Shown here: positions 37,016 to 58,245 of the stretch, one piece after another
How the letters are laid out: every line of letters starts with the position of its first letter
Numbering within the stretch: the first letter of the stretch is position 1
NCBI GenBank assembly: GCA_025060325.1
Contig: JANXBW010000009.1
Coordinates: forward strand, 47,012-111,011
DNA from: Thermoguttaceae bacterium
GTDB lineage: Bacteria > Planctomycetota > Planctomycetia > Pirellulales > Thermoguttaceae
Reading direction: 5' to 3'
DNA: 64,000 nucleotides
The notes under the pieces: model-generated
What the model was told of the DNA's origin: nothing
Seen by the model: the letters and a program-made list of their open reading frames with translations, nothing else
Databases searched by the model: none
Position numbers and translations under genes: made by a program

Positions 37016-38311
37016 GTTCTTTCTATCTCCTCATCTGCTTGTGTCGATTTCCCCGAAGTGCTCATCCCTTTTGGTTTGTTCTCGCACGGTACCGCAGCCG
37101 GCGGCCGCTTGCGCCCCTGGCCTGCCTTGGTGAGGCAGCGGGCTGTTCCAGCTGGCATTTGCCCTTAAAAGGGACGAAGGTATTGTCCGCCGCGCGGGCG
37201 TTCCCGCCTTCGGGGCGGATCATGTGCTGCTAGCAACAATTTTTCGCTAGGCACCCAGTCTTTTGGCAGCGACCTCACTCGGAGAGATCGCCGATCAGCT
37301 TGGCCCAGTCGGCCGCGCGGCCACCCCGCTTGGCCCCGTCTTACTTTTTGTTGGCCCCCTCGGCTCCTTTAGGCTCCAGGAGAAGGGCCGCGGTGAGGGC
37401 TACCAAAAGCGGCGAATTGGAGCTGAGGCGATTGGGTTTTTACTCCCGGGCCAAAGGATTGGCCTCTCCCAAGTGGCAGCTTCGAAAGGTTTTTGGGAAA
37501 TGTGACTTTCGGCTATTACGCAAAGTCGCGCTTGAGTGCTCATCGGTTGAACTGGGCCGGAAAACCGCAAGGAGCAGGATTCTCGTCGGGCCTGCCTCCG
37601 TGCACGTCAAGAGTTCCTTTCCTGCGCAAGAAAAAAGCCGTTTGTCAATCTTTTGGCATGAGGGCCGTAAATTGCTTAAGGTAGCGATTGGTGGTCGGTC
37701 GTTTGAAGGCTAGGGCAAAAATCCCTTCGGTGTAGCATATTATGCCGCCGGTGTTTCCCTCAGGTGGGGGAATTGAAGACCGGTTCGTCTGTAACTAAAT
37801 TGGGCAGATATGGAAAGTTGCGTTTGGCTAGGGGCAGTTTTTTGGACCAGTCAGGCGACAAAAGGACACTTCTTATATTGGCAGGGCTATTAGTAACGCG
37901 TCGCCGCGGCTGAGCGAGTAAAGAAGCGATGAGTGCGGGTAAGGGGCATCAATTGAAGCGGGTGTATTTTAGCCGGCGCGTTTTTGTCAGTGGGTCCGGC
38001 ACGGGGCTGGCGGTATCTTTTCAAAACGTATTTGGCCGCGCTGATTCGTTGATGAGGACTGTGAATCAAGTTTCCTGTGTGTCCGCGCCGGCCGCGATGG
38101 GGTATTTCACTGGGCCCGCTGCTCTCATCTATCACTGGCCAGTTGTTGGCGAAGTTTTTCGCTCGGTCGGGCGATTCCAGATTTTACCAATTCTCAGTAC
38201 GACAAGGAATCTCCCAATATCGCCAGGTTCGGAGATGGACGCGGTTCTCCCCGTTTGCGCTATGCCCTCGGGAATCGGGTGGTAAGCGAGCCCATAAGGA
38301 GAAAAGTTCCG
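37016..38311. other. Long gene-free region upstream of the 20 kb cluster
   Basis: About 1.3 kb. Frames such as 37300-37713 and 37929-38285 lack ribosome binding sites and protein-like composition. It must contain the promoter of the 38.3-58.2 kb cluster, which I could not place. A GC-rich stem region lies near 37178-37220. Confidence 0.45.
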
Positions 38312-39622
38312 ATGGTGTATCTGGGACAGACCGTTGTCACAGGCCTTTTCGAGACAAGACCGTCCGTTTGGGAGATGACCACCCGGGGCCAAATCGTCCT
38401 TAGGCGGTCTGTGTCTATGGGTGTAGTGTACGAGCCTCCACCTGTGCCCGAAGGCTGGCCGCGGTGGACAAAAGTTCGGGGTGGGCAAATTGAGTATGAA
38501 ATGGCGTTTCCGAGCTTCCCGGACGCTGTTTTCAGTTTTGGCTGGTGGTGTGGGGAATTGCGAGCTCAAAGCTCTTTGTGGCAGCAGTATCGTTGTGGCC
38601 AAGATCCCACTCCGGAGCCCTTGCTCAAGCTTGACCAAATCGTTGATAAAATTCTGACGTTGGCCTCGCACCTCCACCAGGCAGGCTGGGGGCTTGGGTT
38701 GATTACCCCAGACAACATTTTTGTTTTCGAAACAAACGGCCAGTTAACAGTGAGCTTTACCGATCTAGGGTTTTCCTGGGGGAGCCATTCGCCACTTGTT
38801 CCGCCAAACTTTATGCGAAAGGCGGCGGAAGGTAACGCAATGGCAAATCTGTGGGACGGAGGTGATCCGCAACGTCAGCTTGAGCGGGGTCGCCCAATTC
38901 CAGCTGCGGAGTTTGACCCGGGGCCGGATATTCGCGCGCTGGTTCGGGTATTCATTACAGCGTTACTCCGGGAAAACGAGCACGAGTATTTTGCCGACGT
39001 CCCAAGTCCGGATGTTCGCCCGGAAACGGCGGTTCAGTGGCCTCATATCCCCGGAGGGCGCCGCGTGTGGTCCACTTTGGCGAGCATTTTGGCGGAAGGT
39101 GCTCAGTCGGTAGAGGAATTGCGGCAGAGGCTCGAGGAAACTCCTCTAAGTCAGCATTTCATGGCCGAGGCACCTGCTGGGCTTGGGCGCAGATGGACTC
39201 GACGGTTGGCACTGGCCGTCGGATCCCTGCTGTGTGGGGCGGCGTTAGGCGGTTATCTGTTCGTCCAAGGGCGCAAGGAACCCCCCCCGCCGATAACGGG
39301 TCCGGTCATAGAGCTTGATCCGTTGAAAAAGTTGAAAGAGAAGTGTGACAGGCTTTTTGAGGAAGTGCGGAGTATCTATCGGGAGTGTCAACAGTCAGTC
39401 GCCAAGTTCTTCGAGGTCCGGCGGAAGTTGGCCGAAAAGCGGAAAGAGGTGAAAGACCTTTACGCCGAAGTCAACAGTCGGTTACAGGAACTTAGGGAGC
39501 GCCGTAGCCGTCTACGGGACGCTGATGATCCGGACGGGTTGAAGGAATGGGAAAGGCGACTTACAGAGTGTGGAGAGAAGTTGGATTCGTTAGAAGTGAT
39601 CTTTTCAGAGGTGCTGCGATGA
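38312..39622 (+). CDS. Membrane-anchored pseudokinase with coiled-coil tail
   Basis: A 436-residue protein and first gene of the cluster. Residues about 1-280 resemble a Ser/Thr kinase catalytic fold: the catalytic-loop position reads LGLITPDNIFVF at 128-139, in which the H-R-D and K of HRDLKPxN are missing but P-D-N is kept. T-D-L-G (150-153) matches D-F-G. It therefore looks like a pseudokinase or a highly diverged kinase. The aligned region is judged by eye. A membrane segment (about 297-318) and a long charged coiled coil (335-436) follow. ATG 38312 has AAGGAG 10 bases upstream. The last bases overlap the next gene (ATGA), suggesting translational coupling. Confidence 0.7.
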   Translation: MVYLGQTVVTGLFETRPSVWEMTTRGQIVLRRSVSMGVVYEPPPVPEGWPRWTKVRGGQIEYEMAFPSFPDAVFSFGWWCGELRAQSSLWQQYRCGQDPTPEPLLKLDQIVDKILTLASHLHQAGWGLGLITPDNIFVFETNGQLTVSFTDLGFSWGSHSPLVPPNFMRKAAEGNAMANLWDGGDPQRQLERGRPIPAAEFDPGPDIRALVRVFITALLRENEHEYFADVPSPDVRPETAVQWPHIPGGRRVWSTLASILAEGAQSVEELRQRLEETPLSQHFMAEAPAGLGRRWTRRLALAVGSLLCGAALGGYLFVQGRKEPPPPITGPVIELDPLKKLKEKCDRLFEEVRSIYRECQQSVAKFFEVRRKLAEKRKEVKDLYAEVNSRLQELRERRSRLRDADDPDGLKEWERRLTECGEKLDSLEVIFSEVLR

Positions 39623-40953
39623 ATAGACGAAAACAACTTGGGCTGTTGAGAAGTGTGATTGCGGTAGTGTTTTTGGCAGTCGTTATGGGTGTAGTCGCGG
39701 GTGGATCAGGCTCGGCTCAAGAGACACCCTCACGCAGCTCCCTTTTAATGTTGGTTCGATGTAATCCGGATCTGACGCAATCGCAAGTCGAGGAAACGCT
39801 TCGGTTCGGCATTCAGCAGGCTGGCTGTAGTGCCTCGGAAATCGTGGTGCGAGAGGTGCCGCCGCACACTCTGGACGAAATCGAGGCGATTGTTCGCAAG
39901 GTCGAACCTCAGGAGGTAGCTGTCCAGCTGGGGCAAGATGTTTCGTTGTTTCGCCGGCCTAGCGTAGCCGCTGTGTGGGAATTTCGTCTGCGAACAGCCT
40001 CAGCGGAAATAGTTGAAAAGCTGGAGGTGGGTTACGCAGCAAAGCTGGAAAGCCAGCCGGAAACTTTGAACTGGGTGACGTACACGCCGGAGCGGCCGGA
40101 TGTCGTAGAGAAAAACCGAGCCGGCTTGGCGGCTGTCTCTGTTGGAAACGGGCGTTATGAATTCTATCCGGCTGCCGAGCTGGGATCGCCTGTCGCCTTC
40201 CGCATGCATCTGCGGAATGAAGAGGGTGGGACCCGAGAGCTCCGAGGAAACTTCCCCCTTATGGACCGTTGCTACTTTATCCAACTCGTGGACTTCCAAG
40301 GAGACAGAACCGCACTGTTTAGCGCGATGCGTGATCCAAGAAAGGTACCAAATCCGTTTTCCGATATCCGAGAGCGAACAACGGTAACGCTAGTTTTTGG
40401 CAACCTCCAGGCTACGGGGGGTATTGTGGGCGAGTCGTTAGATGGCCTCGAGCTTGTGGTCAATGTTCCTGGTGTACCCGGACGGGTGCCTGCCCGGGTG
40501 TGGATGCTTTTCCCCTTGAACGAGCAGACCTTGAAAGAGGAAGAAGCGAAATTGCAAGGCCTAGAGCCAATAGGCCCGAAGCTCTCGGAGGAAATTCGTA
40601 AACGTGCCGTGCGGACCACAGATCAGCGTTCACCGATTGTTGAAGACTTAGAGCCCCGGTGGTACGAGCTGCAATCCGCAGGGACGGGCTTCGAAGGGCG
40701 GATCCAGCTTGTATCACGGAAGGAGGATTTCGCGAAATTGCAGGAGAAGTTTCCGCGGGTGTTTCGCATATTAGTTTGGGAATTCGAAGCGGGAAACATC
40801 GTGGCTCCCATCCGCCTAGTGGGTGGGAAAGTGTACAGAGCGGAGGAACTATTCGCCTGGCCAAGATTACTCGACGCAGCCACCCGGACTAGCGCCAGTA
40901 AACCCGAGGAGCCGACCGGTAAGTCGCCCCCAACGGGAGTGAGCACGCCTTGA
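39619..40953 (+). CDS. Exported protein of unknown function
   Basis: A 444-residue protein starting at ATG 39619, which overlaps the pseudokinase stop codon as ATGA. The N-terminal hydrophobic stretch (VIAVVFLAVVMGVVAGGSGSA) is a signal peptide or anchor. The mature part shows alternating strands (such as AVWEFRLRTASAEIVEKLEV and VTLVFGNL) and acidic and basic surfaces. A short Pro/Thr-rich tail ends it. No family is recognised. The shared overlap predicts a partner role with the pseudokinase, probably in the envelope. Confidence 0.75.
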   Translation: MNRRKQLGLLRSVIAVVFLAVVMGVVAGGSGSAQETPSRSSLLMLVRCNPDLTQSQVEETLRFGIQQAGCSASEIVVREVPPHTLDEIEAIVRKVEPQEVAVQLGQDVSLFRRPSVAAVWEFRLRTASAEIVEKLEVGYAAKLESQPETLNWVTYTPERPDVVEKNRAGLAAVSVGNGRYEFYPAAELGSPVAFRMHLRNEEGGTRELRGNFPLMDRCYFIQLVDFQGDRTALFSAMRDPRKVPNPFSDIRERTTVTLVFGNLQATGGIVGESLDGLELVVNVPGVPGRVPARVWMLFPLNEQTLKEEEAKLQGLEPIGPKLSEEIRKRAVRTTDQRSPIVEDLEPRWYELQSAGTGFEGRIQLVSRKEDFAKLQEKFPRVFRILVWEFEAGNIVAPIRLVGGKVYRAEELFAWPRLLDAATRTSASKPEEPTGKSPPTGVSTP

Positions 40954-43260: not shown

Positions 43261-45852
43261 GTGAGTACCGAGGTCATTATCAACAACGTTTATCTCAACT
43301 GTGGTTGGGTCGAGCACCGTTATAGGCTGCCGAAAGCGAAGGATTGGTGGAGCGATGCGCGGACTGGGTCGGTTCTTTCCCCGGAGGGGGGGATCCTTAT
43401 AGTGCGGTGGTGGGAGCCCTTTGTGACTGTGGAGTTAGAAGGAGAAACACCGGAGTCTCAAGGGAAACCAAGGGGTGAGCAAGGCACTAAGAAGATTGTT
43501 CCCATTACAAGCGCAGCCGACCTCGGGGCACTGATTTATAAGCGGTTTGGCCGCAGGGCCAACTTTCAGCAAGCTGCTTGCTTCGCGGGGGCGGAGATCC
43601 TGCCGGAGACTAGCTTGGAATGTCGGTTTATGATTAATACAAGTTCTGAGCAATTCCGCCGAGCCGCAGCTAGTTCCGAGCACGGAAACGGGGGAGGCAT
43701 GTGCATCGAAATTGAGTTTATTCTGGTCCAGAAACGGACTGCGGGTGTCGAGCAGCAAAGAACCTCCCTCCATCTGAGGTTGGAGCCGGTGGTTTATCCA
43801 CCGTGTTACCAAGGGGTCCTGGCTGTTGACTTCGGAAACACGGAAACCAATTTGGCGTCGTTAGACGCAGGCCGGCCACTCAGTACACGGTTTATCTCCC
43901 TTCTTCCTGATCTGCAGTTCGATCGGGAGGCCTTGAATTTGGGGGCGCACCTTCGCGGTGAATCGCCGGTGGATTCCTTATTGCGCATCGATGCGGTAAC
44001 CGATTGCGAAGAGCCTACCATTAAAGAGCGATTTAGTCCTCAAGAACTTTTATCCCAACCGGAGGCTTACTATTACCGCATCGGTAGGCATACCAATGTC
44101 GGGATGGAAGAGCCCCATGGGTTAGTGGCTAACCCAAAACGGGCAGTAGTTGCCCCCCGGGGAAAGGTTAAATACACAATTCTTACTCGCGTTGATGAGG
44201 AGTATCCAGCTCGCCAGGTGTTTGATAGGCGGCCAGATTACCAGTTGGAGTTGCCTGGACCTCGTCCTGCGGAACTCTTCTTGTGTCGACTGTTAGAAGG
44301 TTTTCGGGGATTGCACAGGGCTTGGCCCCGGCGTTTGGCCATGACCTATCCTTCCACATATAGTGCTGGAGAATTGGCCAGATTCCGTGAGACTGTTGCC
44401 CAAGCATGGCGATTGGCGGAGAGATTTAATCCACAGAGGAACTTTCTCCAGCAGGAGGAAGTCATCGCGCTTGTCATTGATGAGGCAAGTGCCGCCGCAT
44501 TTTATTACTTGTCTCGCTGGGTCTTAGAAGGTCCCGGTGGTCTCCGCTCCTTCCGTTGGTACTATCCTGAAGGGTTTTATCTGCTTGTTTACGACTGTGG
44601 CGGGGCCACTACCGACGTGTCCCTCGTCAAGGCTGAAGCCCCTCAGCATGACCTTTTACGGCTCACGGTTTTAGGCCGAAGTGGTCTGCGGGATTTCGGC
44701 GGTGATGATATTACCGTGGCAGTCTTTTTGTTGTTAAAGGCCCGATTAGCTGAAAAGTTGGCCGAGCGTTCAAGAGAACGCGTTCCCCGGGTACCTAATC
44801 TCAGCGCCACGGGCAGAGGTGGTGTGGACCCGGTCACTTTTAGGGAGTTTTTCCGGAATGAAGAGAATTTGGAAGCGTGGGATCAGTTGGTGCCCACCGA
44901 CTACCACAAGGGGGCAAGCGGGGGGAGCTTGCTGGCTCGTCAACGGCTGAGAATGTTGATGTGGCAGTGGGCGGAGGAAGTAAAAAAATGTGTCTCGACC
45001 GGTCAAGATCCCACCAAAGGGATGCCAGCTATCTGGGCCCGCATTCGTGAATCGCTCGGGGATTTTCCTCGGGAATTGTTTGATCAAATTCGGGTTAGCC
45101 CGCAGGAGATTAATGCTCTTATCGAAGACCAGGTGAAAAAAAGTGTTCGGCTGTGTCGGAACCTGCTTGAAAGTAAATTAGCTTTTCGTCTTGGTAAGCC
45201 GGACGATGTCTTTTTGGTGGGCAATGGGTCCCGTTATCCGCTTGTGGGCCAAACGCTGCGTCAAGAATTTTTAGGGGAACCATTAGGCGAAAAAGGGGCA
45301 GCAAGCGGGATGTGGAGATTCTGTCCGTCTTTAATGGGTCTTGAAAGTAGCTTTTCCGAGGCGGATCTGAAGGATTGCGTGGCCAAAGGGGCAGCCATGG
45401 CGCTTGCCCTTCGGCAAGGGAGTTTGGGGCTCAGTTTGGAGTTCGATACGGATCTTTGTCGACGTCTGCCCTTTTCGATTGGTTGGCACGACGCCGCTGC
45501 CAACACCTATGTGCCGCTTTATCACGAGGGGGAGCGGTACGAGGAGCTGGCCCCAAAAACGTTAAATGTGAACGTTCGGGAAGGAAGCAATCCGCCGACA
45601 TGGATCCGCTTATCGCACCGATGGCCAGGTGGAGAGTACGAGCCTTTCCTCATCTTCGAATTTGACGAAGGCGTGGAAGGGCCGGTGACCATCTCTTTCG
45701 ATGCAGAAACGGAGCAGTTCATCGCGACAGTCGATCAGACTGGGCAGCAGGTGACAGGAGAACGGGATATTGACGTTGATGTTTATCGGGCGGCTTTGCA
45801 ACGCGAAAAGATCCGATTATCGTTCCGAAGTGACATTCGCGAAAATACTTGA
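43261..45852 (+). CDS. SrfB-like Hsp70/actin-fold ATPase
   Basis: An 863-residue protein. Phosphate-1 motif LAVDFGNTETNLASLD has D190, G192, N193, T194; phosphate-2 is LLVYDCGGATTDVSLV (D445 to D452); the adenosine-type motif FLVGNGSRYP has G654-R658. These are the three signature segments of the Hsp70/actin ATPase core, and the order and length suit SrfB. About 180 residues precede the core. GTG 43261 follows AGGGGGTAAG. It lies 67 bases after the GTPase. ATPase activity is inferred from the motifs; the DnaK-type C-terminal substrate domain is not evident, the C-terminus (WIRLSHRWPGGEYEPF, DAETEQF) being beta-rich. Confidence 0.82.
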   Translation: MSTEVIINNVYLNCGWVEHRYRLPKAKDWWSDARTGSVLSPEGGILIVRWWEPFVTVELEGETPESQGKPRGEQGTKKIVPITSAADLGALIYKRFGRRANFQQAACFAGAEILPETSLECRFMINTSSEQFRRAAASSEHGNGGGMCIEIEFILVQKRTAGVEQQRTSLHLRLEPVVYPPCYQGVLAVDFGNTETNLASLDAGRPLSTRFISLLPDLQFDREALNLGAHLRGESPVDSLLRIDAVTDCEEPTIKERFSPQELLSQPEAYYYRIGRHTNVGMEEPHGLVANPKRAVVAPRGKVKYTILTRVDEEYPARQVFDRRPDYQLELPGPRPAELFLCRLLEGFRGLHRAWPRRLAMTYPSTYSAGELARFRETVAQAWRLAERFNPQRNFLQQEEVIALVIDEASAAAFYYLSRWVLEGPGGLRSFRWYYPEGFYLLVYDCGGATTDVSLVKAEAPQHDLLRLTVLGRSGLRDFGGDDITVAVFLLLKARLAEKLAERSRERVPRVPNLSATGRGGVDPVTFREFFRNEENLEAWDQLVPTDYHKGASGGSLLARQRLRMLMWQWAEEVKKCVSTGQDPTKGMPAIWARIRESLGDFPRELFDQIRVSPQEINALIEDQVKKSVRLCRNLLESKLAFRLGKPDDVFLVGNGSRYPLVGQTLRQEFLGEPLGEKGAASGMWRFCPSLMGLESSFSEADLKDCVAKGAAMALALRQGSLGLSLEFDTDLCRRLPFSIGWHDAAANTYVPLYHEGERYEELAPKTLNVNVREGSNPPTWIRLSHRWPGGEYEPFLIFEFDEGVEGPVTISFDAETEQFIATVDQTGQQVTGERDIDVDVYRAALQREKIRLSFRSDIRENT

Positions 45853-46048: not shown

Positions 46049-48790
46049 ATGGCAGGCGGCAGCGGATTTAAAAAGACGGGGGAGACCGGTCAGCGGCTCA
46101 GCGAGATCCGGAAAGAGTGTCAGGACCGGCGCATGCAGGCAAACCAGCTCATGAAAGATTTTCAGGAGCGGTTGCGCCTCGCTTGGCTCAAGGCCTTGTT
46201 ATTGATGGACTTATGGGAACCGCAGCTGCTTCAGAAGGGTTTGGAATTTCTTGATGAGGTTATCAAGTTCTTAGATGAGGTTGAGCGTCTGCTGACTCAA
46301 GGACAATGGCTTCTCGAAGTCCTGCGGATCCTGTCGGAAACTCCTGAACTAAGGCATTTGGCTGATGAGCTAATTTCAGATCTGTCACAGTTGGGTGGGG
46401 AGCTTGACTGCGAAGAGGTTTGGAAGCGACGGGAAAAGATCTGCAGATTGGCCGCCCTAACCTTTTGTCTTGGCGAGGCGTTGGGTCAGGCACCCCTGGT
46501 TGAGCAATTTCGGGAATTGAGCAAGGGGTTGAGCCGGGGCGGCATTCGCCTGACCGTCGAGCGAGTTCAAGCTAGGTCCGGGGGACCGGTTTTTTGGGAG
46601 TTTATGAAAGGGCCAGGTGAGCTGGAGCTCCATTGCCTGTGGGCCACAGTCAGTAGAGCCGTTAGCCCTGGTAATGTGGCGAACCAGTTTCAAGGGTGCT
46701 TTCGGGTGGTGACAGGTCCGGAGGAGCAGCTTGAAATCATTCGGACTGTCACAAAGGCCCTTGAGAAGTTCAAAGAGATTAATGCGGCTCTCTCCGAGGA
46801 GGGTCAGCAGATTTTGATCAGAGCATTGTCCCGTAAGGATCCGGGGTCTAAGGCGGATGCTTTTCATTACTTGAACAAACTGTGGCAAGAGACGCTTAGG
46901 TGGAAGGCAAGTTTACGTGAGACCGCTGAGCCACCACCCCTAGTTAAACTGGAGGAGGATTTGCAAATCATCGGGGCGGTGAGTTCCGCGCCCCAGAGCC
47001 AGCTGTCCTATGCCGTCGTGGGGAAGCAACGGCGAGCTTCGTCTGGCGTACACGCGGGTAATCCTCCACAGGAGAATGGGAGGGTTTTAAATATCGCAGT
47101 TTCGGCCTGGTGGCGATTCTGCGTGGAAATCTTGGGTTTGGAGATCCTGCCCCAATTGGGAGCGGAAGATCAGGCAGGTCACCTTATCTGGGATTTCCAG
47201 CCGGAACTTGAGGACATTGTAGGTAAAAAACCTTCCAGTGTTCTCGTCAAGGACAAACGTGAGAAACTTTTTTACGAAGTTAAGCAACTCGGCCTAAGTC
47301 CCTCTCGTCGAGCGGCGGTTTCATTTGATGCCTTTTGGTGTAGGGAGTTTCCCGAGGAGCGGCAGTGGACGGTGGTAGTTAATTTGCCGCCAGATTTGTG
47401 GCAGCTGATCAATCTTGAGAATCCCAAAAAGCTTGAGAATGTGGTGAAGCTGGCAGAAATACTCCGTCGGTGGCAAATTAAGCTTCTCCAGTATGCTTTC
47501 CGTTCAGATTCATCGAGCAAAGTTAAAGTGTTATCCAAGGCGGAAATGGACCGCTTGCGTGACGACGGATTTGCTCAAGAGTTGCATAACCTCGTTTGCG
47601 CCGCTTGGGGTGTGGATGCACAAGGAAAAGTTTCCCGCCCAGAAAATCCGTTGGCAAAGCGTTGGCTTGAAGCCGTTGAGAGCTTTCTGGGTGTAAGGGT
47701 CTATCCACGAAAGAGGGAAGGAGACGCCGGCTCTGCCGGATTTGAGCTTCCGGAAGGTTATAGCCTAGAGAATATTGAGTGCGTTTTCGACGCTGCGCTG
47801 CCGCGTACGGTGGTGGCATGTAAACAATTTGCCGTGGATCCGCAACGGTGTCGACTGGTCGTAAGCGCGGGGCCGCTGGAGTTGGCAACCGAGATTGTAC
47901 GAAGCGCCTACCAGCTTCATAAAGCTGCCCGCGAGCTCCGAAAGAGTTGCCCTAATTTGCCGCAGGCTGCGAGCTTGGCCGAGCTAGTTGAGAGTCTGAT
48001 CAAGCACGAAACGTTTAATTATCTTGAATTTAAGAAGTTCCATGATAGCGATAGGTCGGAAGTACTGGAAAAAATCATTGATTATCTCAATCAACTTCAC
48101 CATCGTGAGCCCCAAGCCGTGCAGCTTCAATTTCTACGGTCTCTCGAGGCCTGGGCACAATCTTTTGGCTACGGGATCCTCCCTTCCGGTTATACCCCCA
48201 ACTTTAAATGGGAGAAGTTGGCTCCCGAGGAGCGCAAGTGGGCCAAGTTCGAGTTCCGCGATGATGTCCCTTGTGGCACGGTGATTGTGGAAGAATTCGG
48301 CTACATCCAGAAAGGAAAGCAGCAACCAATTCGGCCACCAAGTCTCACGGTCTCCGCGGGGGGAATGCCCACCGAGTGGAAGATCTTGCGGAAAATGGTG
48401 GAAGACTGGGATGGGGGTAGGGAACTCCGCGATCGACTTTCGACCCACCTTGCGAAGTGGCCGGAGGAGATGGTCAGAGGCGGATCGAAGGAAAGTTGCA
48501 CCATCGGGTGGTACGAGACGCTTTGTGAATTGCCTCCGGCGACTGGGGCTTCTGAGCAAGAAGAATTTTGGCGGTGTATACGGGAGAGGTTTAAAAGCGA
48601 AGTTCTTTCCGGCATTAAGCTCTTTCTTTGGGAACCCAATAGTTTTTCTGAGGCGCTCGATGAGAGAAGGTGCATCTCGATTAACCAATGTCCGCCGGGA
48701 GCGAATCACTTTGAGGTTGTTTTTCCCGGCCTACAACAAAGCGATGGTACTCTGGTTGTGGCGGCAAGAGTGCGTTTAATCCGCAGATGA
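46049..48790 (+). CDS. Large orphan protein of the SrfBC-like cluster
   Basis: A 913-residue protein with no recognised domain. Residues about 30-150 are helical and Leu/Glu-rich (LDEVIKFLDEVERLL), consistent with helical bundles; later parts mix charged and hydrophobic stretches. It has no signal peptide or membrane segment, so it is probably cytoplasmic. By position it could be the third partner of the GTPase and Hsp70-like proteins (SrfA in the enteric set), but I see no direct similarity. ATG 46049 has only a weak AAGGGA upstream, after a 196-base spacer, so the start is uncertain. Confidence 0.75.
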   Translation: MAGGSGFKKTGETGQRLSEIRKECQDRRMQANQLMKDFQERLRLAWLKALLLMDLWEPQLLQKGLEFLDEVIKFLDEVERLLTQGQWLLEVLRILSETPELRHLADELISDLSQLGGELDCEEVWKRREKICRLAALTFCLGEALGQAPLVEQFRELSKGLSRGGIRLTVERVQARSGGPVFWEFMKGPGELELHCLWATVSRAVSPGNVANQFQGCFRVVTGPEEQLEIIRTVTKALEKFKEINAALSEEGQQILIRALSRKDPGSKADAFHYLNKLWQETLRWKASLRETAEPPPLVKLEEDLQIIGAVSSAPQSQLSYAVVGKQRRASSGVHAGNPPQENGRVLNIAVSAWWRFCVEILGLEILPQLGAEDQAGHLIWDFQPELEDIVGKKPSSVLVKDKREKLFYEVKQLGLSPSRRAAVSFDAFWCREFPEERQWTVVVNLPPDLWQLINLENPKKLENVVKLAEILRRWQIKLLQYAFRSDSSSKVKVLSKAEMDRLRDDGFAQELHNLVCAAWGVDAQGKVSRPENPLAKRWLEAVESFLGVRVYPRKREGDAGSAGFELPEGYSLENIECVFDAALPRTVVACKQFAVDPQRCRLVVSAGPLELATEIVRSAYQLHKAARELRKSCPNLPQAASLAELVESLIKHETFNYLEFKKFHDSDRSEVLEKIIDYLNQLHHREPQAVQLQFLRSLEAWAQSFGYGILPSGYTPNFKWEKLAPEERKWAKFEFRDDVPCGTVIVEEFGYIQKGKQQPIRPPSLTVSAGGMPTEWKILRKMVEDWDGGRELRDRLSTHLAKWPEEMVRGGSKESCTIGWYETLCELPPATGASEQEEFWRCIRERFKSEVLSGIKLFLWEPNSFSEALDERRCISINQCPPGANHFEVVFPGLQQSDGTLVVAARVRLIRR

Positions 48791-51958: not shown

Positions 51959-53311
51959 ATGTCAATTGGCCCAGACCGAGGCGGGAGGGATAGAACGGCG
52001 AGTTCCCCCCCTAGGCCGGTTGCGACGCGGAGTGTTCGGCCTTCAAACGGGAAGGGTGTTCAGCACGATGGCCCGCCGGTGCGGTTGAAGATTTTGGCGA
52101 CGGTGGGTCCTTTAATCTTGGCCGGGGGGGCAGTCTTGTGCTTCTGGCTTGGGCTTCTCTTTGGTGACGCCCTAGGCAGCCGACGGGCACAGAATGCCAA
52201 CCAGACAAAAGGCACGGGTGGCTTGACAAGCGGGGGCACCGCGCCCGGTACGCCCCCGCCCTCCTGGGCCGATAACATTCTGCAGGAACTTAACAAGCAG
52301 GCGAAGAGACTGGGGCAGTTAGAACAGCTAGTTTCGAAGCTTCAGACCACCGCGACACAGATAAATGAATTTAAAAGCCTGGCTACAGATATACAGCGTG
52401 TACAGAGAACCGCTAGTGATATACAAACGATTATCGGCGAGCTCAAACTTAAGATTGACGAAATTGATAAGGACCTCTCGCAGTTTAAGCCCAAGGTTTC
52501 AACCCAGCAAGAGGGAGCCGCGCCGGGTCAGGGCGGGGGCCCGTCAGAGGGAGGTTCCCAAGCAGGAGAGGCTCGGGGGGAAGGCGCGCAAACGCGTTTG
52601 CCAGTTTTTGTTTGGTTTGTCCACACAAGCGAGTCTCCTTGTATTAGGTATAAACCCGTTTGGGAGGATCTCCGGAGCCTCATTAAGGAGCACGCAGGCG
52701 AACGGACGGTCGGCGACACCGACGAATGCGGCCGCGAAGTTTGCAAGGAGCCCGCACGGGAACGGATGGTCGTGAAAGTCTTCGCTCAAGAGAACGAAAA
52801 CGTTACGCCAGTGTGGGACTCTGAAAACGATAGCGAGCCACAACCTCCTCAAACACCCGCTACTGAGGCAAGCAAGGAAGTAAAACTTCAACTATTTTCC
52901 AAGACGTTGGATGAAACGATGGAAAAGTCCCAACAACTGGGTGATGCGCGTTGGTCAGTCGTCATTGTGGCGCCGCCCCAAGGGTTTACCACTCGGGGAG
53001 CTGAGCTCACCCAGTTTCAGCATAAATTTCGTAACCTGGAGGAAGTGTGGTTGGTCCCATTGAGCGCTCGCCCTGACGAGAAGGTAGAAGTAGGTTTTGC
53101 GAATATTTTTTGTGGAGGGGGCCCGCCAAAAGGAAGCCAACCGTTTTCCGATAGGCCCACTGTAAGACTACATCCGGTTTTTCGTCCAAGCGACGCAGCT
53201 CAAGAAGGTGCTTCATTAGCGGGGAATGTACCATCCCCGCAAGATAGCGCAAATACGTGGGACGTGGACTTTCTTCGAGAGTTGTTGCGAAGGGTTGTCT
53301 CGAGGAATTGA
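51959..53311 (+). CDS. Membrane-anchored coiled-coil protein
   Basis: A 450-residue protein with a short Arg/Pro-rich cytosolic N-terminus, one membrane segment (about 43-69), a Gly/Thr-rich linker, a coiled coil (about 103-185), a Gly-rich linker, then a C-terminal domain (about 210-430) with strands PVFVWFVHTSE and WSVVIVAPPQGF and a helix. The strand pattern resembles that in the C-terminal domain of the previous protein. It starts 6 bases after that gene and ends 11 bases before the next start, so it is firmly in one operon. No family is recognised. Confidence 0.72.
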   Translation: MSIGPDRGGRDRTASSPPRPVATRSVRPSNGKGVQHDGPPVRLKILATVGPLILAGGAVLCFWLGLLFGDALGSRRAQNANQTKGTGGLTSGGTAPGTPPPSWADNILQELNKQAKRLGQLEQLVSKLQTTATQINEFKSLATDIQRVQRTASDIQTIIGELKLKIDEIDKDLSQFKPKVSTQQEGAAPGQGGGPSEGGSQAGEARGEGAQTRLPVFVWFVHTSESPCIRYKPVWEDLRSLIKEHAGERTVGDTDECGREVCKEPARERMVVKVFAQENENVTPVWDSENDSEPQPPQTPATEASKEVKLQLFSKTLDETMEKSQQLGDARWSVVIVAPPQGFTTRGAELTQFQHKFRNLEEVWLVPLSARPDEKVEVGFANIFCGGGPPKGSQPFSDRPTVRLHPVFRPSDAAQEGASLAGNVPSPQDSANTWDVDFLRELLRRVVSRN

Positions 53312-53322
53312 GGTGGCTGGTT

Positions 53323-55884
53323 ATGAAACCGGGGCGGTTTGTTTGTTTACCATTCTTGCTGGTTGCTTTAACACCTGGTTTGTGTTTTGGCCAAGTGTCC
53401 CTAAGTGTGCAGATGCCGGATGGCAGTCCTGTGCCTAGGCAGGCGTGGCCCTCCGTCAATCCGTTGATGGTTGGAGTGCCATTTTGGGTTTGGAACGCAT
53501 ACGAGGGCCTCAGACCCCGAGATCTGCCCGGCGGTAAGGAGCTGGGACAGCCACTTACGTTTGGCCAGCAGCTTGTGGTCATGGCCGTGGTATTCGGCGG
53601 GGCCTTGTACAAATCCCCCCCGTCGAACGTTGACAGGCGTGAGCTAGTGCGACGTGGATGGGTCTTGGTGGGGAGATGGCCGGCGAAAGCCGAGGGACTT
53701 GACAGTGAGGCTATCGGTTGGGTGGAGGGGAGGTATCTGGCCCAGGATGAAGCGATCAGGGATGCTGCCTCAGGAGTTCATCTGAAGGGCTGGTTGAAAA
53801 GAGACATTCGCGGCCTTAAGGCGGGACAACAACAGGTAGGCGCGACTGGGACTCGTAGTGACCAAGAACAGGCAGGCTCGACTGAGGCTCGTAGTGACTA
53901 TGTTAAGGGCGTCACAACGGGATTAAAAGCTCCGCACCACGAAGCTCCTAGCCACCGGCAAGTTCGTTTTAACGAATTCTTTTTTATCTTTGGTCAGACG
54001 GGCAACGCACCTGATAAAGATTTTGTCCTCCTAGGCACCGAGTATCAGTTTCAGGCTGGTCAGGAGGATCGCCTTCTCGGGTGGTTTCCCCGCTGGGCTG
54101 TGGAGATTTGGTACACAAGGGAAGCTCTCCAGTGGAATCAGTCAGAGAATCGTCCCTTAAGGCCGGGACGCATTTACTTAACCCCTGACGATGCGTTGAA
54201 GGCACATCCGAGCCAGGTGGGGCCAGGGCAGCCCGAGTCTCAGGTAGCACCGAAAGCCCCAAGTCCGCTCCGGGACGGCGATGGCGGCACAGGGGTGAAG
54301 CCGGAAGTGCGTCCGCTTCTTGAGGAGCGATTTGTTGACAACAAGCCGGTGCCGTTAAGGCCGGACTCACCTCGATTTCCCATCCTCCTCTGGCCGGAAG
54401 AAGAGCGTTACCGGTACAAGTTTCCGTCGGGCTGGCGGCTTGTAAAAGTGGGCGCGGAAGGGGGCTTTGTGGACGAAGAGGGTAATCCCGTCGCTTCGGC
54501 GGAAAGGATTAAGGAACTTCGGGAGGAACTTCGGAACGTTGAGGAAAGTATCAAACGACTGGAAATTCTATTAGTAGTTGACGACACGGAAAGCATGAGA
54601 CCATGGTTTCAGGTAGCTGCCCAGGCTCTTGAAAAGGTAGTCAGCGCTCTTACGCAACAATCGCCTTCGGCGGCTGACCGTCAGGTGGCACTAGCGATCA
54701 CTTTTTATTCTGACTTTGACCCGGATGATCCGGGGTTTCCGCCCGTGCGAACGCAGTCCTTGAGTGCTAATCCTGTCGAGATTGCGAGCCGGCTGGATCA
54801 GTTACGAAGGCACTCTGTCTCGCGTGGGGGAGATGCGCGGGAGATGGTGTTTGAGGGGATAATTAGAGGTATTCGGGCAGCGGGCTTTCTTCCTCTTTCT
54901 ACGAAAGTCGTGATTGTCGTCGGGGACGATGCGGACAAGTCGGATGAGAACGATCCGAGTCATTTGGCGGAGCGCCAAGTGGTAGAGGCGTTGGCGAGCT
55001 TTCCGGTGCCGCCTCACTTTTTTGCGATTCAGGCGTTTCCGGAGTCGGGATTTGAAGATCGTCCGGTGGCGGCAGCCTTTCGGAAACAAATGGACACAAT
55101 AGCTCGGCTTTATCGGGAACACATTCAAGCCAAGTTTAAGAATAAGGATAAGGATAACGTTAAGGATTATCAAGCCCGGGTCCTTAGTACGGATCAGGCG
55201 TCGCGAATAGTCCAAGACGTCGTTAATTACTTTGAGACCGTTGCTCACCAGCAGAATGTATGGCGTAGGGAACTCCAGGCACTGCGCCTCGGAGACTTTG
55301 CTACCCGTATTGGCCCGGCGGTCCAGTCGGTGCTAGAAGATCTTGGGATAGAGCAAGAGCTAGCGCCGCTGCGAGGCAAGCAGGGGTTTCAGGTGTACCT
55401 CGAGGGGTATACTTGGTTGCCGGTGGGAGGGGGTGATAATATAGGGGAAACTGAATTGGTTGTTTTGTTGTCTAGGCGGGAGGTGGAAGACGTGGTTGCG
55501 ATCGTTCGGGAATTTTTCGACGAGTTGGGCGGAGACTACAACCCTAATAAGTTTCGCGAGATTTTGGATAAGGCGTTGGGCGAGAAATCGAAGGATTTTT
55601 GGGAGCAGCTGCTCAAGATGACGGCGCTTTTGGGTGCGTCCCAGAGGTTGCGGAAGTTTTTAAAACGCGATCCTGATCTTTCGGTGGAAGACTTGTACGA
55701 GCTTCAGGGGCGGTTGGTGCGCCTTGAGGACATTCTGCGGGGGGTCCGGTATGAGTATCGTCGGCGAGGGGGCCAGGGCGTGTGGATGCGAGTGGGTGAC
55801 GGGGAGCCGGACGACCGCTGGTTTCGTTCCTTTACGGGAGAGGTAAGTTGGGCGTGGATTCGAGTGCGGGACGAATGGCCGTAG
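53323..55884 (+). CDS. Secreted von Willebrand factor A (VWA) domain protein
   Basis: An 853-residue protein. ATG 53323 begins a signal peptide (VCLPFLLVALTPGLCFG) and is preceded by GAGG; the longer frame start at 53257 overlaps the previous gene. The first about 300 residues include SH3-like segments (GWVLVGRW, IGWVEGRYLAQD) and a low-complexity insertion with duplicated R-S-D units. The VWA domain spans about 410-610: a MIDAS-type DDTES (D420, T422, S424), then GGDARE and VVGDDADK, all Mg2+-coordinating positions. C-terminal parts contain YLEGYTWLPVG and LVVLLSRREVED, which loosely recall PpkA-type VWA proteins. Its role may be protein-protein contact in the envelope, which is inference. 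Confidence 0.78.
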   Translation: MKPGRFVCLPFLLVALTPGLCFGQVSLSVQMPDGSPVPRQAWPSVNPLMVGVPFWVWNAYEGLRPRDLPGGKELGQPLTFGQQLVVMAVVFGGALYKSPPSNVDRRELVRRGWVLVGRWPAKAEGLDSEAIGWVEGRYLAQDEAIRDAASGVHLKGWLKRDIRGLKAGQQQVGATGTRSDQEQAGSTEARSDYVKGVTTGLKAPHHEAPSHRQVRFNEFFFIFGQTGNAPDKDFVLLGTEYQFQAGQEDRLLGWFPRWAVEIWYTREALQWNQSENRPLRPGRIYLTPDDALKAHPSQVGPGQPESQVAPKAPSPLRDGDGGTGVKPEVRPLLEERFVDNKPVPLRPDSPRFPILLWPEEERYRYKFPSGWRLVKVGAEGGFVDEEGNPVASAERIKELREELRNVEESIKRLEILLVVDDTESMRPWFQVAAQALEKVVSALTQQSPSAADRQVALAITFYSDFDPDDPGFPPVRTQSLSANPVEIASRLDQLRRHSVSRGGDAREMVFEGIIRGIRAAGFLPLSTKVVIVVGDDADKSDENDPSHLAERQVVEALASFPVPPHFFAIQAFPESGFEDRPVAAAFRKQMDTIARLYREHIQAKFKNKDKDNVKDYQARVLSTDQASRIVQDVVNYFETVAHQQNVWRRELQALRLGDFATRIGPAVQSVLEDLGIEQELAPLRGKQGFQVYLEGYTWLPVGGGDNIGETELVVLLSRREVEDVVAIVREFFDELGGDYNPNKFREILDKALGEKSKDFWEQLLKMTALLGASQRLRKFLKRDPDLSVEDLYELQGRLVRLEDILRGVRYEYRRRGGQGVWMRVGDGEPDDRWFRSFTGEVSWAWIRVRDEWP

Positions 55885-56690
55885 CATTCACCGTAGAGGA
55901 TTTGCAGTACCATTATCCGAGCCAAGATGGGTTGATCCTTCGGGGACTGACGTTCACCATTCCTCTTGGGTCAAAAGTGGCCATCTTTGGCCGCTCGGGG
56001 GTGGGCAAGTCCACATTGCTTTCCATCTTAGGGCTTTTATGGGAGGGCGAGCTTGCCAGCGGCAGGGTCTGCTACCATAGCCTCGACCACGGTCTGCCCT
56101 GGGATTACCGGCAATTAACTTCTCCCGAGATTCGGGCAAGTTTACGCCTGCGTGAGTTTGGTTTTGTGTTCCAGTGGTCGGGGCTTTTGCCTCACCTGAC
56201 ATGTGAAGAAAATGTAGCCCTTCCGCTAATTTTGCAAGGTTGGCCAACCAGCAAGTGGCGGCCCCGGGTCCGGCGACTCTTAAAGCTGGCCGAACATTCG
56301 CCCGGCGAATTGAGCGAGCTAGCCAATCGCTTGGGGCCATTTTCTGGAGGTCAACAGCGGCGATTAGCTCTTATCCGCGGGCTCAGTCATAATCCGCCGG
56401 TGCTTTTTGCCGACGAACCCTTTAGCAATCTTGACAGCCGCTCGGTTGAGGCGGTCCTTCGGCTCCTAGCAAGTTGGCACATGGGGGAGCTTTTCCCGGA
56501 GGATCCACCCGCCCCGCGGACGCTTCTTTTAGCCAGTCACGACATAGAGGAAGCTTGGCAGCTGTGCGATCACTTTTTGATTCTTACGCCGGAGGGGACA
56601 CTTGCGGACCAGCGAATCCTCCCCAAGACGGACTTGAGCTTAGACAGGGTAAAGGAGCTGATTGATCGGCCGAGTGTTTGCCATACTTGA
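55875..56690 (+). CDS. ABC transporter ATP-binding protein (LolD/MacB type)
   Basis: A 271-residue ATPase. Walker A GRSGVGKST is at 39-47, Q-loop FQWSG, signature FSGGQQRRLAL, Walker B VLFADEP and H-loop LASHD. Such ATPases work with FtsX/MacB-type permeases. Start is ambiguous: the frame opens at TTG 55848, with GTG 55854 and ATG 55875 also possible; all overlap the VWA gene end (55884), implying coupled translation. The permease gene follows 28 bases later. Function could be lipoprotein release, efflux or mechanical signalling, as in the LolCDE, MacAB or FtsEX systems. Confidence 0.88.
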   Translation: MAVAFTVEDLQYHYPSQDGLILRGLTFTIPLGSKVAIFGRSGVGKSTLLSILGLLWEGELASGRVCYHSLDHGLPWDYRQLTSPEIRASLRLREFGFVFQWSGLLPHLTCEENVALPLILQGWPTSKWRPRVRRLLKLAEHSPGELSELANRLGPFSGGQQRRLALIRGLSHNPPVLFADEPFSNLDSRSVEAVLRLLASWHMGELFPEDPPAPRTLLLASHDIEEAWQLCDHFLILTPEGTLADQRILPKTDLSLDRVKELIDRPSVCHT

Positions 56691-56718
56691 CGGGCGGCAA
56701 ATCAAGGGGATGTAGAGG

Positions 56719-58245
56719 ATGGCTCTGGGAAGAGGTTGGCGAGTGGTGTGGTGGTTAGCAGTGCGGAATTTGGTGCGTCGGGGTCGGGTGTCTTCGACGG
56801 TGGTGATAAGCGTGGCTTTGGGGTTGTTGACTTTTTTGACAGTATTAGGCCTGGGGGTGTTATTCGGCTATCAGGCGGTGGAGCGCGCGAAACTTTTGGA
56901 GGATCCGCTATCGTGTTGCTTGTGGGTAGGTCATCCGGCGATTCGCGAGAGGTGGTTAGATGAGGAGCGGATGGAGGCATTGAAGCAGTTGTTGGGAAGG
57001 ATGGAGGGGGTTAGGGGGTGGTATCCGTGTCGGGAGATACATGTGGACTGGTTTATGGTGGATCGGCCGGAGGCCAAGGAGTCGGTGACAATCCGCGGTC
57101 GCACTATTCATCCCGATGATCCTTTCTGCCAAGTGCTTGGCCCAGAACTGATCCAAAAGCCCGGCAGAGTCGTTGTCACAGCGGAATTCTTTCGTTTAGT
57201 CGGTCATCCAGAAGATCAAGAGCCTCCGCCGCAACTAAGTTATCGTTCAGATGTTGGGCAGCATGGCACCTGCCAGGTCGCGGGAGTCCTTAGGCGCGAT
57301 CTTCCTTGGCAACATCATTTCATCGTAAGCGAGGGTTGGTATCAGCGCGAATTTAGTCGCCAGGCGGATGTTCGCACCAGTTGCGTCCGCACGGGCCACT
57401 TGCCTGCCGATTGGCCTGAACGCTGGACAGACTTCCCCGCCGAAGTGCGATCCCTGTTTGGTAGCTATCATTTTTTTCCGCCCAGCCGCACTTTGGATGT
57501 GGATGGCAAGCCTTATTGGGTGATCATGACGGACAGCCAGCCGGGGCTATTCATCAGCGAATTCCGCGTCCGCCTGGAGATGGTATGTCAAAAGATGCGT
57601 TTGCTGGGCTTCCAAACCCAGGGGGAGGAAGCCTTTCTTGACGGCATTGCCCCCTATGGCGCTGCCAGTAGTCCCCGTCAAGCTACCAGTCGTCCCTACA
57701 ATTTGGTTGCTGTTTATGTCAACTCCCTCTCGGACCTAAAACCGGTCAAGCAGACTTTAGAGGCGCATGGGTTTGCTGTGCGAGATACCGCTTATGTTAT
57801 CGAAAGGCTCGATCAAATTGCTCAGCGGACGACTGTCCTTGGGAGAATTATTTTGGGCGTATTGCTGGCAATGGGGGGTGGACTCCTTACTTTGCTTGCC
57901 GGCGTACACATGATGCGGGCCGAAACGCGGATCCAAGAAATTGGTACGCTTAAGGCCCTGGGGATGTCAAAGGGTTTTGCTGTCGCCGTGTTGGCCGTCG
58001 AGGCTATTATCGTTTGGGTCGTGGGAACTGCGTTGGGCTTAATAATAGGTGTGCCGGCCGGAAAGTTCTTCGTCGGGCCAGCGCTCCTTGCTGCAAGTGA
58101 AAATCTCCGACAACACGCGTTCATCCTGCCGCCCGGCGTTTTGATTGGTCTGTTTATGTTGACCTTGTTCACCAGTCTATTGGCTATTTTGGCCTCGGCC
58201 TGGCGGGCAATCACTTCGCCCCCCGTCCTGACGGCGCAACCGTAA
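56719..58245 (+). CDS. FtsX/MacB-type ABC permease
   Basis: A 508-residue permease with membrane segments near 24-50, 370-397, 405-440 and 466-495. A large periplasmic domain lies between the first and second. The 1+3 arrangement is typical of LolC/E, MacB and FtsX. RTETRIQEIGTLKALG-like text (RAETRIQEIGTLKALGMSK) marks the conserved cytoplasmic coupling helix. It follows the ABC ATPase and ends the plus-strand run, so a half transporter for the cluster is likely. The large domain is not recognised. Confidence 0.85.
   Translation: MALGRGWRVVWWLAVRNLVRRGRVSSTVVISVALGLLTFLTVLGLGVLFGYQAVERAKLLEDPLSCCLWVGHPAIRERWLDEERMEALKQLLGRMEGVRGWYPCREIHVDWFMVDRPEAKESVTIRGRTIHPDDPFCQVLGPELIQKPGRVVVTAEFFRLVGHPEDQEPPPQLSYRSDVGQHGTCQVAGVLRRDLPWQHHFIVSEGWYQREFSRQADVRTSCVRTGHLPADWPERWTDFPAEVRSLFGSYHFFPPSRTLDVDGKPYWVIMTDSQPGLFISEFRVRLEMVCQKMRLLGFQTQGEEAFLDGIAPYGAASSPRQATSRPYNLVAVYVNSLSDLKPVKQTLEAHGFAVRDTAYVIERLDQIAQRTTVLGRIILGVLLAMGGGLLTLLAGVHMMRAETRIQEIGTLKALGMSKGFAVAVLAVEAIIVWVVGTALGLIIGVPAGKFFVGPALLAASENLRQHAFILPPGVLIGLFMLTLFTSLLAILASAWRAITSPPVLTAQP

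Follow-up and report, generated by a model that had tools for sequence, protein, structure and literature searches.

The locus described here raises the question of what a kinase-like protein that has lost its catalytic residues does when its gene stands near those of a dynamin-like GTPase and an Hsp70-like ATPase. This gene lies in the window, by which we mean the whole stretch of 64,000 nucleotides of Thermoguttaceae bacterium DNA that was analysed.

The kinase-like protein of the window

The gene and its product show the following features.

37300-37713 and 37929-38285: ORFs just upstream of the pseudokinase gene
38296..38301, + strand: AAGGAG, likely ribosome-binding site of the pseudokinase gene, 10 nt before the ATG at 38312
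38312..39622, + strand: pseudokinase-TM-coiled-coil protein, 436 aa, ATG start
38693..38719, + strand: degenerate catalytic loop LGLITPDNI, residues 128-136
38762..38770, + strand: DLG (D151-G153), the DFG equivalent
38924..38968, + strand: alpha-F-like helix of the kinase C-lobe, residues 205-219 (helix 203-219 in the alignment-based model; aligned in the profile comparisons)
39209..39265, + strand: TM helix, residues 300-318, predicted from hydropathy (likewise placed in L035, L036, L061, L062, L065 and L066)
39317..39616, + strand: helical C-terminal region with a heptad pattern, residues 336-435, probably outside the cytoplasm

The first-pass annotation had described a pseudokinase in which the catalytic Asp and Lys are gone while the Asn and a T-D-L-G remain, and this was confirmed at residues 128-136 and 150-153, the latter (TDLG, read from the window ORF) being the metal-binding motif. 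Compared with related loops such as HGNIKPSN, the HRD Asp is replaced by Leu and the catalytic Lys by Thr, the Asn is kept, and D151 is the DFG Asp. The Asp of HRD and the Lys two residues further on, which are found in active Ser/Thr kinases (K-D-D in PF00069), are therefore both absent. The two orthologs (n = 2) read VGLLAPENI and DLG in the alignment with the window protein, so these losses are common to all three; the catalytic Asp and Lys positions hold Leu and Thr in the window and Leu and Ala in both orthologs, and GLxxPxNI and DLGF are shared by all. The three-ortholog alignment showed 34% identity and 79 invariant columns, which include N135 and D151 and no Lys. In the window branch, neither a Gly loop nor a VAIK or other N-lobe Lys was recognisable, the N-lobe alignment being uncertain. 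The first-pass annotation had proposed to look for an N-lobe Lys; none is invariant in the three orthologs, in a region of uncertain alignment and block pLDDT of 24-48.

At E<=1, Pfam and NCBIfam gave only weak coiled-coil-region matches for the window protein and no Pfam kinase or PF00069 match. A profile of the three orthologs was aligned over the C-lobe and TM helix with ten related proteins, a set that includes none of the three orthologs (prob 95, E 3.4e-8), and over the C-lobe with three of the nearest kin of those ten (prob 50, E 1.6e-4). With the four TM-bearing relatives alone, it gave E 0.058 in the wrong region and no kinase alignment. One further profile comparison (A1 vs A4) was circular and was excluded from the evidence. 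The PDB profile search with the three orthologs returned six matches at E 0.05-0.84, four of them kinases and two helical chains.

Single-sequence AlphaFold2 gave no usable kinase part (mean pLDDT 42). When the relatives were supplied as an alignment, the mean pLDDT was 59, with 71-85 in the blocks at residues 111-150, 201-220 and 251-280, 34-53 between them, and 24-48 in the blocks of residues 1-100; this model depends on the relatives, and three of these match PF00069 plainly (E 4.3e-24 to 2.6e-21). Foldseek with the alignment-based model named a kinase in 48 of the best 50 rows, the two 3gok rows being unspecified; the best row had prob 0.95 and E 0.05, and none among the rows listed reached E<=0.001. 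VIA-align named a kinase in 49 of its best 50 rows, with RIP1 at the top (Z 11.2, 4.5 A, 182 residues). The order of elements in a kinase C-lobe (alpha-E, Asn-bearing catalytic loop, DFG-like Asp, alpha-F and C-terminal helices) was found in the window protein. Since the profile comparison, the alignment-based model and the structural matches agree, the kinase C-lobe homology of the window protein is well supported. Fold prediction did not refute the pseudokinase reading by giving a non-kinase fold; nearly all structural matches listed were kinases.

A membrane helix had also been annotated, and hydropathy predicted one, at residues 300-318, whose N-terminal flank carries more positive charge than its C-terminal flank. 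Residues 336-435 form two long helices in both AlphaFold2 models (single-sequence and alignment-based), the pLDDT by block being 71-89 from residue 341 with the alignment vs 48-87 without it. The best heptad score of this stretch was reached by none of 1000 shuffles of it, which agrees with the annotated coiled coil of about 100 residues; for the window sequence, a predicted coiled coil at residues 336-435 is well supported by the score and the shuffles. The C-terminal tail is the least conserved part in the three-ortholog alignment and is shorter in the G026 ortholog.

Gene neighbourhood and counterparts in other genomes

After the pseudokinase gene, ten genes follow on the same strand up to 58245, either overlapping or separated by no more than about 260 nt; the pseudokinase stop overlaps the ATG of the first of them (ATGA).

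39619..40953, + strand: 444-aa protein with an N-terminal hydrophobic segment, between pseudokinase and GTPase; ortholog beside the pseudokinase in L035 and L036
41115..43193, + strand: dynamin-like GTPase, 692 aa; Pfam Dynamin_N only at E 0.015
43261..45852, + strand: Hsp70-like ATPase, 863 aa; three nucleotide motifs recognisable
46049..48790, + strand: 913-aa protein without a convincing family match; ortholog in L035 and L064
48815..49717, + strand: membrane protein with three predicted TM helices
49979..51952, + strand: protein with an N-terminal TM helix and Calx-beta domains; counterpart in G026
51959..53311, + strand: TM protein with a coiled-coil-like region
53257..55884, + strand: probably secreted protein with a weak vWA match below the Pfam cut-off; the true start may lie after 53257
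55848..56690, + strand: ABC transporter ATPase; counterpart in the G026 cluster
56719..58245, + strand: membrane protein with four TM helices, presumably resembling an FtsX/MacB-type permease

The anchored Calx-beta protein (49979-51952) is an unusual partner for a cytoplasmic GTPase-Hsp70 pair, and the gene run ends in an ABC ATPase and a permease-like protein (55848-58245).

The pseudokinase and the GTPase co-occurred in the same 3 of 60 genomes, its own included, and the two pseudokinase orthologs were found in this set; in G002 the two genes lie at the ends of two contigs. The window pseudokinase alone found no relative in the genome contigs, and a 92% complete genome of the same genus gave none of the pseudokinase, the GTPase and the Hsp70-like protein. 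Matches to the Hsp70-like protein were found in 31 of 294 Planctomycetota genomes at E<=0.001, some of which may be other Hsp70 relatives, and the GTPase profile matched in 18 of 392 genomes at E<=1e-20. A GTPase pattern scan of contigs gave 13 loci: eight from Planctomycetota, one from Candidatus Kuenenia, one from an uncultured Thermogutta, two titled 'bacterium' only, and one weak cyanobacterial match (L067), which was excluded altogether. L064, the Thermogutta contig, coincides in its coordinates with G002:C166, G002 being of the window's genus. The GTPase motifs were invariant in ten aligned members, and Hsp70 nucleotide motifs were recognisable in eleven Hsp70-like proteins; one distant GTPase matched Pfam Dynamin_N (E 1.5e-16) and two distant Hsp70-like proteins matched HSP70.

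The sample comprised 24 dynamin places, namely 22 from the GTPase profile search (23 rows, two of which are one split gene in G276), L050 and G002:C166. Nineteen of them could be read upstream, as the contig ends before the kinase side in L046, L047, L064 and L098 and the dynamin fragment G098:C424 was left out; 21 could be read downstream (not L086, L094 or G098:C424). A profile-supported kinase-like gene was found upstream of the GTPase in 17 of the 19 readable places, and the catalytic Asp in 0 of the 17. Ten of these genes abut the GTPase (45-175 nt from the stop to the first base of the GTPase domain), that of L053 is divergent from it, and those of the window, L035, L061, L062, L065 and L066 lie 1182-1493 nt away. 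The loop motifs include HGNIKPSN, HGCIKTSN, HGHLLPHN, HGALKPSN and APYITPWN, besides the LGLITPDN of the window. Among the 16 counterparts tabulated, which do not include L086 (counted in the 17 and cut by a contig end), the Asp is replaced by Leu in 2, Asn in 5, Cys in 2, His in 2, Ala in 1 and Tyr in 4, while the Asn is kept in 15/16, the DFG Asp in 13/16 and the N-lobe Lys in 11/16. Outside the 17, L050 has a kinase-like domain that, judged by eye (HMM E 0.9), is degenerate and accompanied by a TM helix and a coiled coil, and the remote member L097 has a kinase downstream of the GTPase with an intact HRD and an NFG. L097 (G123:C181) is a remote GTPase-Hsp70 pair that may be a separate arrangement.

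HRD is intact in other kinases of these stretches (L050, L061, L062 twice and L096). In the control genomes G000 and G026, PF00069 gave 40 matches, all but two of them alignable, and the Asp is kept by 37 of these 38. Fisher's test gave p 9e-14 for a provisional 18 vs 38, a value that is no literal probability as the sequences are related. Because 0/17 stand against 37/38 ordinary kinases and the neighbours are kept, the catalytic inactivity looks old and retained and does not look like decay. A dead kinase recurs as a member of planctomycete GTPase-Hsp70 clusters, and its membership is probably ancestral. Pseudokinase and GTPase distances were correlated over 16 loci (r 0.948, 0/5000 permutations), a value that shared descent explains in part; co-occurrence and distance correlation fit binding and co-inheritance alike.

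Two kinases of these genomes call for separate mention. In the window's own genome, L117 (G000:C22:13367-14062) has the loop VYGCLRPTKI and is the sole Asp-less one of the 38 alignable matches. At L062:12261-15604, two HRD-intact kinases follow the GTPase and the upstream pseudokinase reads APYLSPWN, a possible active-dead pairing.

Two layouts were seen. Soluble pseudokinases directly abut the GTPase gene, and the pseudokinase-TM proteins of the window, L035, L061, L062, L065 and L066 lie one gene-length from it; L036 has the pseudokinase-TM layout too, with the GTPase on another contig. Since nine distant counterparts show no TM helix (L037, L043, L044, L048, L053, L054, L091, L092 and L094), membrane anchoring is not general. 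The intervening gene encodes the exported-looking 444-aa protein in the window and its ortholog in L035. By eye, L061:4556-5887 and L047:2723-3940 have lipoprotein-like starts in the position of the 444-aa protein, the kinase part of L047 being off the contig.

Downstream, an Hsp70-like gene was found within about 2 kb after the GTPase in 19 of the 21 readable places, and none was found beside the GTPase in L061 and L062. GrpE-like regions were found in proteins encoded soon after the Hsp70-like gene in L048:12145-14142 (45.0 bits vs a Pfam cut-off of 25.8; 22.2 bits in the genome search), L037:6171-7592 (E 2e-7 in NCBIfam, below cut-off) and L053:7235-8383 (weak, E 0.0067); none was found in the window cluster or in L044:7152-8207. 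The clusters of L044, L045 and L048 have vWA proteins. A protein with an FGE-sulfatase-like domain is encoded near the cluster at L044:1237-2664; FGS-domain effectors are mentioned for planctomycete systems in the accessible part of PMC7159879.

A defence label was considered and set aside. PADLOC recognised no system in ten cluster proteins, the ABC ATPase giving matches such as mad3 (E 1.5e-23), and only coiled-coil-region noise in the window pseudokinase. The patchy distribution fits defence, but the scanned proteins yielded neither a recognised effector nor a GAP1 protein. Two distant pseudokinases matched the MADS defence kinase MAD6 (NCBIfam) at 69 and 40.7 bits vs a cut-off of 460, which we regard as general kinase similarity.

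Comparison with known systems

The closest parallel is EssB/YukC of type VIIb secretion, which is reported to have a cytoplasmic pseudokinase, a TM stalk and a helical outer part, and to contact the ATPase and the membrane subunits (PMC9600267, as far as accessible). TraF of plasmid pIP501 is described as a second such case in the available text of PMC13037476. Like the window protein, EssB/YukC has degraded motifs, one TM helix, a helical outer part and a place among the genes of a membrane machine (available parts of PMC9600267 and PMC13037476). The order of pseudokinase, TM helix and helical extracytoplasmic part was found in the window protein, the side of the tail being assigned from charge alone. 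On the other hand, the window protein is encoded near a dynamin-like GTPase and an Hsp70-like ATPase, and EssB/YukC is described from Firmicutes while the window is from Planctomycetota. No T7SSb neighbours (FtsK-type ATPase, WXG100 proteins) were found in ten scanned cluster proteins, a scan outside which the permease gene and small ORFs lay. The window protein had no YukC-named Pfam match at E<=1, in a library that may be without such a model, and YukC was not among the Foldseek and VIA-align rows listed, which excludes nothing. By analogy, the window protein most likely works like EssB/YukC, whether or not it belongs to that family.

Kaur et al. (2020) described GTPase-centric conflict systems, one theme of which has HSP70 and GrpE; in the accessible part of that paper, vWA, TM and extracellular repeat proteins belong to other GAP1-N2 themes, and the systems occur also in planctomycetes (PMC7159879). 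The make-up is similar, as the window-type clusters have an Hsp70-like gene beside the GTPase, a GrpE-like region in three and vWA in three. The same paper also states that in vWA-MoxR systems most kinase domains are disrupted at their catalytic residues, so the idea of dead kinases in systems of this kind is not new. However, the GTPase of a distant cluster matches Dynamin_N here. The GAP1-N2 HSP70 theme is mainly actinobacterial and firmicute, and the GAP1-N2 kinase theme is described as catalytically active in the text available (PMC7159879). The ten window-cluster proteins matched no GAP1, GAP1-N2 or DO-GTPase model. PF20013 (GAP1-N2) was found in 2 of 6 genomes, in neither case in the cluster: G000 has none, and in G026 and G070 it is encoded elsewhere. 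The word dynamin is absent from the accessible text of PMC7159879, and that of the second conflict-system paper, PMC8195603, has neither dynamin nor pseudokinase.

O'Boyle et al. (2025) reported the bacterial pseudokinase families ActPs1-3, GLW, CP1, DYD and DLHK (PMC12599244, available part). These are non-catalytic like the window protein, and several have a C-terminal TM region, but by description they come mainly from Actinobacteria, Proteobacteria or Cyanobacteria. In GLW, Gly-Leu-Trp takes the place of HRD and a poly-Leu motif that of the Lys (same part of PMC12599244); the window protein and its orthologs have LGL or VGL at the HRD position, and a poly-Leu was not seen in them. Neither 'planctomyc' nor 'dynamin' occurs in the accessible main text of PMC12599244. 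A study of planctomycete kinases counts functional kinases by their K-D-D residues, and the word pseudokinase is absent from its available text (PMC11032199).

Among the matches listed in our literature search (open-licence papers, without preprints), no title described a pseudokinase-dynamin-Hsp70 cluster. The SrfABC operon encodes the Hsp70-like SrfB and the large GTPase-like SrfC side by side, and we know of no pseudokinase in it. Identity of the neighbours with SrfB and SrfC was rejected: SrfB matched a single distant Hsp70-like protein and did not reach the cut-off there (E 0.052), and no SrfC-named model matched.

Possible roles of the pseudokinase

On balance, we consider it probable that the window protein is a catalytically dead, membrane-anchored pseudokinase serving as a scaffold or adaptor for the GTPase-Hsp70 pair. 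Because six residues replace the Asp and the gene is kept near the GTPase, it is suggested that the fold, and not phosphotransfer, is under selection.

Between a scaffold and nucleotide sensing, the scaffold is favoured. A nucleotide or metal sensor, in which the Asn and the DLG Asp bind nucleotide or Mg2+ and so switch the GTPase-Hsp70 pair, is unlikely in our estimation, although N135 and D151 are invariant in the three orthologs. Since the Lys (11/16), the Asn (15/16) and the DFG Asp (13/16) remain, nucleotide binding may persist in most counterparts, and these residues speak for a sensor. Sensing is less likely in the window branch, where neither a Gly loop nor an N-lobe Lys can be recognised (with an uncertain N-lobe alignment), and YukC, which is degraded likewise, does not bind ATP according to the accessible part of PMC9600267.

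A receptor, whose coiled-coil tail would pick up a signal outside the cytoplasm and pass it on via the pseudokinase, fits the charge bias around the TM helix and the exported and anchored proteins of the cluster; the tail is, however, the least conserved part and is modelled as a plain helix, and we hold this to be quite improbable. Very improbable is an unusual enzyme that carries out AMPylation or glutamylation, as in SelO or SidJ, with the remaining metal-binding residues. Pseudokinases with new activities are known (PMC12599244, available part), and the Asn and the DLG Asp are retained; but SidJ needs its ATP-binding Lys (same part of PMC12599244), of which no conserved counterpart was seen in the three orthologs, and the variety at the Asp position, where six different residues occur, speaks against a single conserved new chemistry. 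A decaying kinase remnant without function, to which the lack of a Pfam kinase match at E<=1 might point, is hardly credible with a frame open in three orthologs at 34% identity and 79 invariant columns, a stop-start overlap with the next gene, and neighbours retained in distant genomes.

For the scaffold, we infer the topology, the dimerisation, the direct binding and the role itself. In the cytoplasm, the degenerate kinase domain would keep the dynamin-like GTPase, and the Hsp70-like ATPase together with it, at the membrane. Dimerisation of the pseudokinase, and its connection to the exported and anchored proteins of the cluster, would fall to the TM helix and to the coiled-coil tail on the far side. 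The GTP- and ATP-driven changes of both NTPases might then be coupled across the membrane via the pseudokinase without phosphotransfer. It is a bolder and rather doubtful step to see here an undescribed membrane-remodelling machine of the Planctomycetota, in which a pseudokinase, serving as the hub for recruitment to the membrane, would couple a dynamin-like GTPase to an Hsp70/GrpE-type chaperone cycle. In eukaryotes, coat removal involves dynamin, Hsc70 and GAK, a protein with a kinase domain, and the proposed machine would be a bacterial analogue.

The membrane biology of the Planctomycetota is unusual. Distant members of this one phylum share the absence of catalysis at one gene position, near a dynamin-like GTPase and an Hsp70-like ATPase, and such recurrence makes the scaffold idea directly testable. 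Bacterial pseudokinases are largely unexplored by experiment, according to the available part of PMC12599244, and what is new in this analysis is the gene context of the dead kinase near GTPase-Hsp70 genes. If the scaffold reading is true, dynamin-type GTPases would join the published GTPase-Hsp70-GrpE-vWA theme. The retained neighbourhood points to the pseudokinase as a scaffold part of an undescribed membrane machine.
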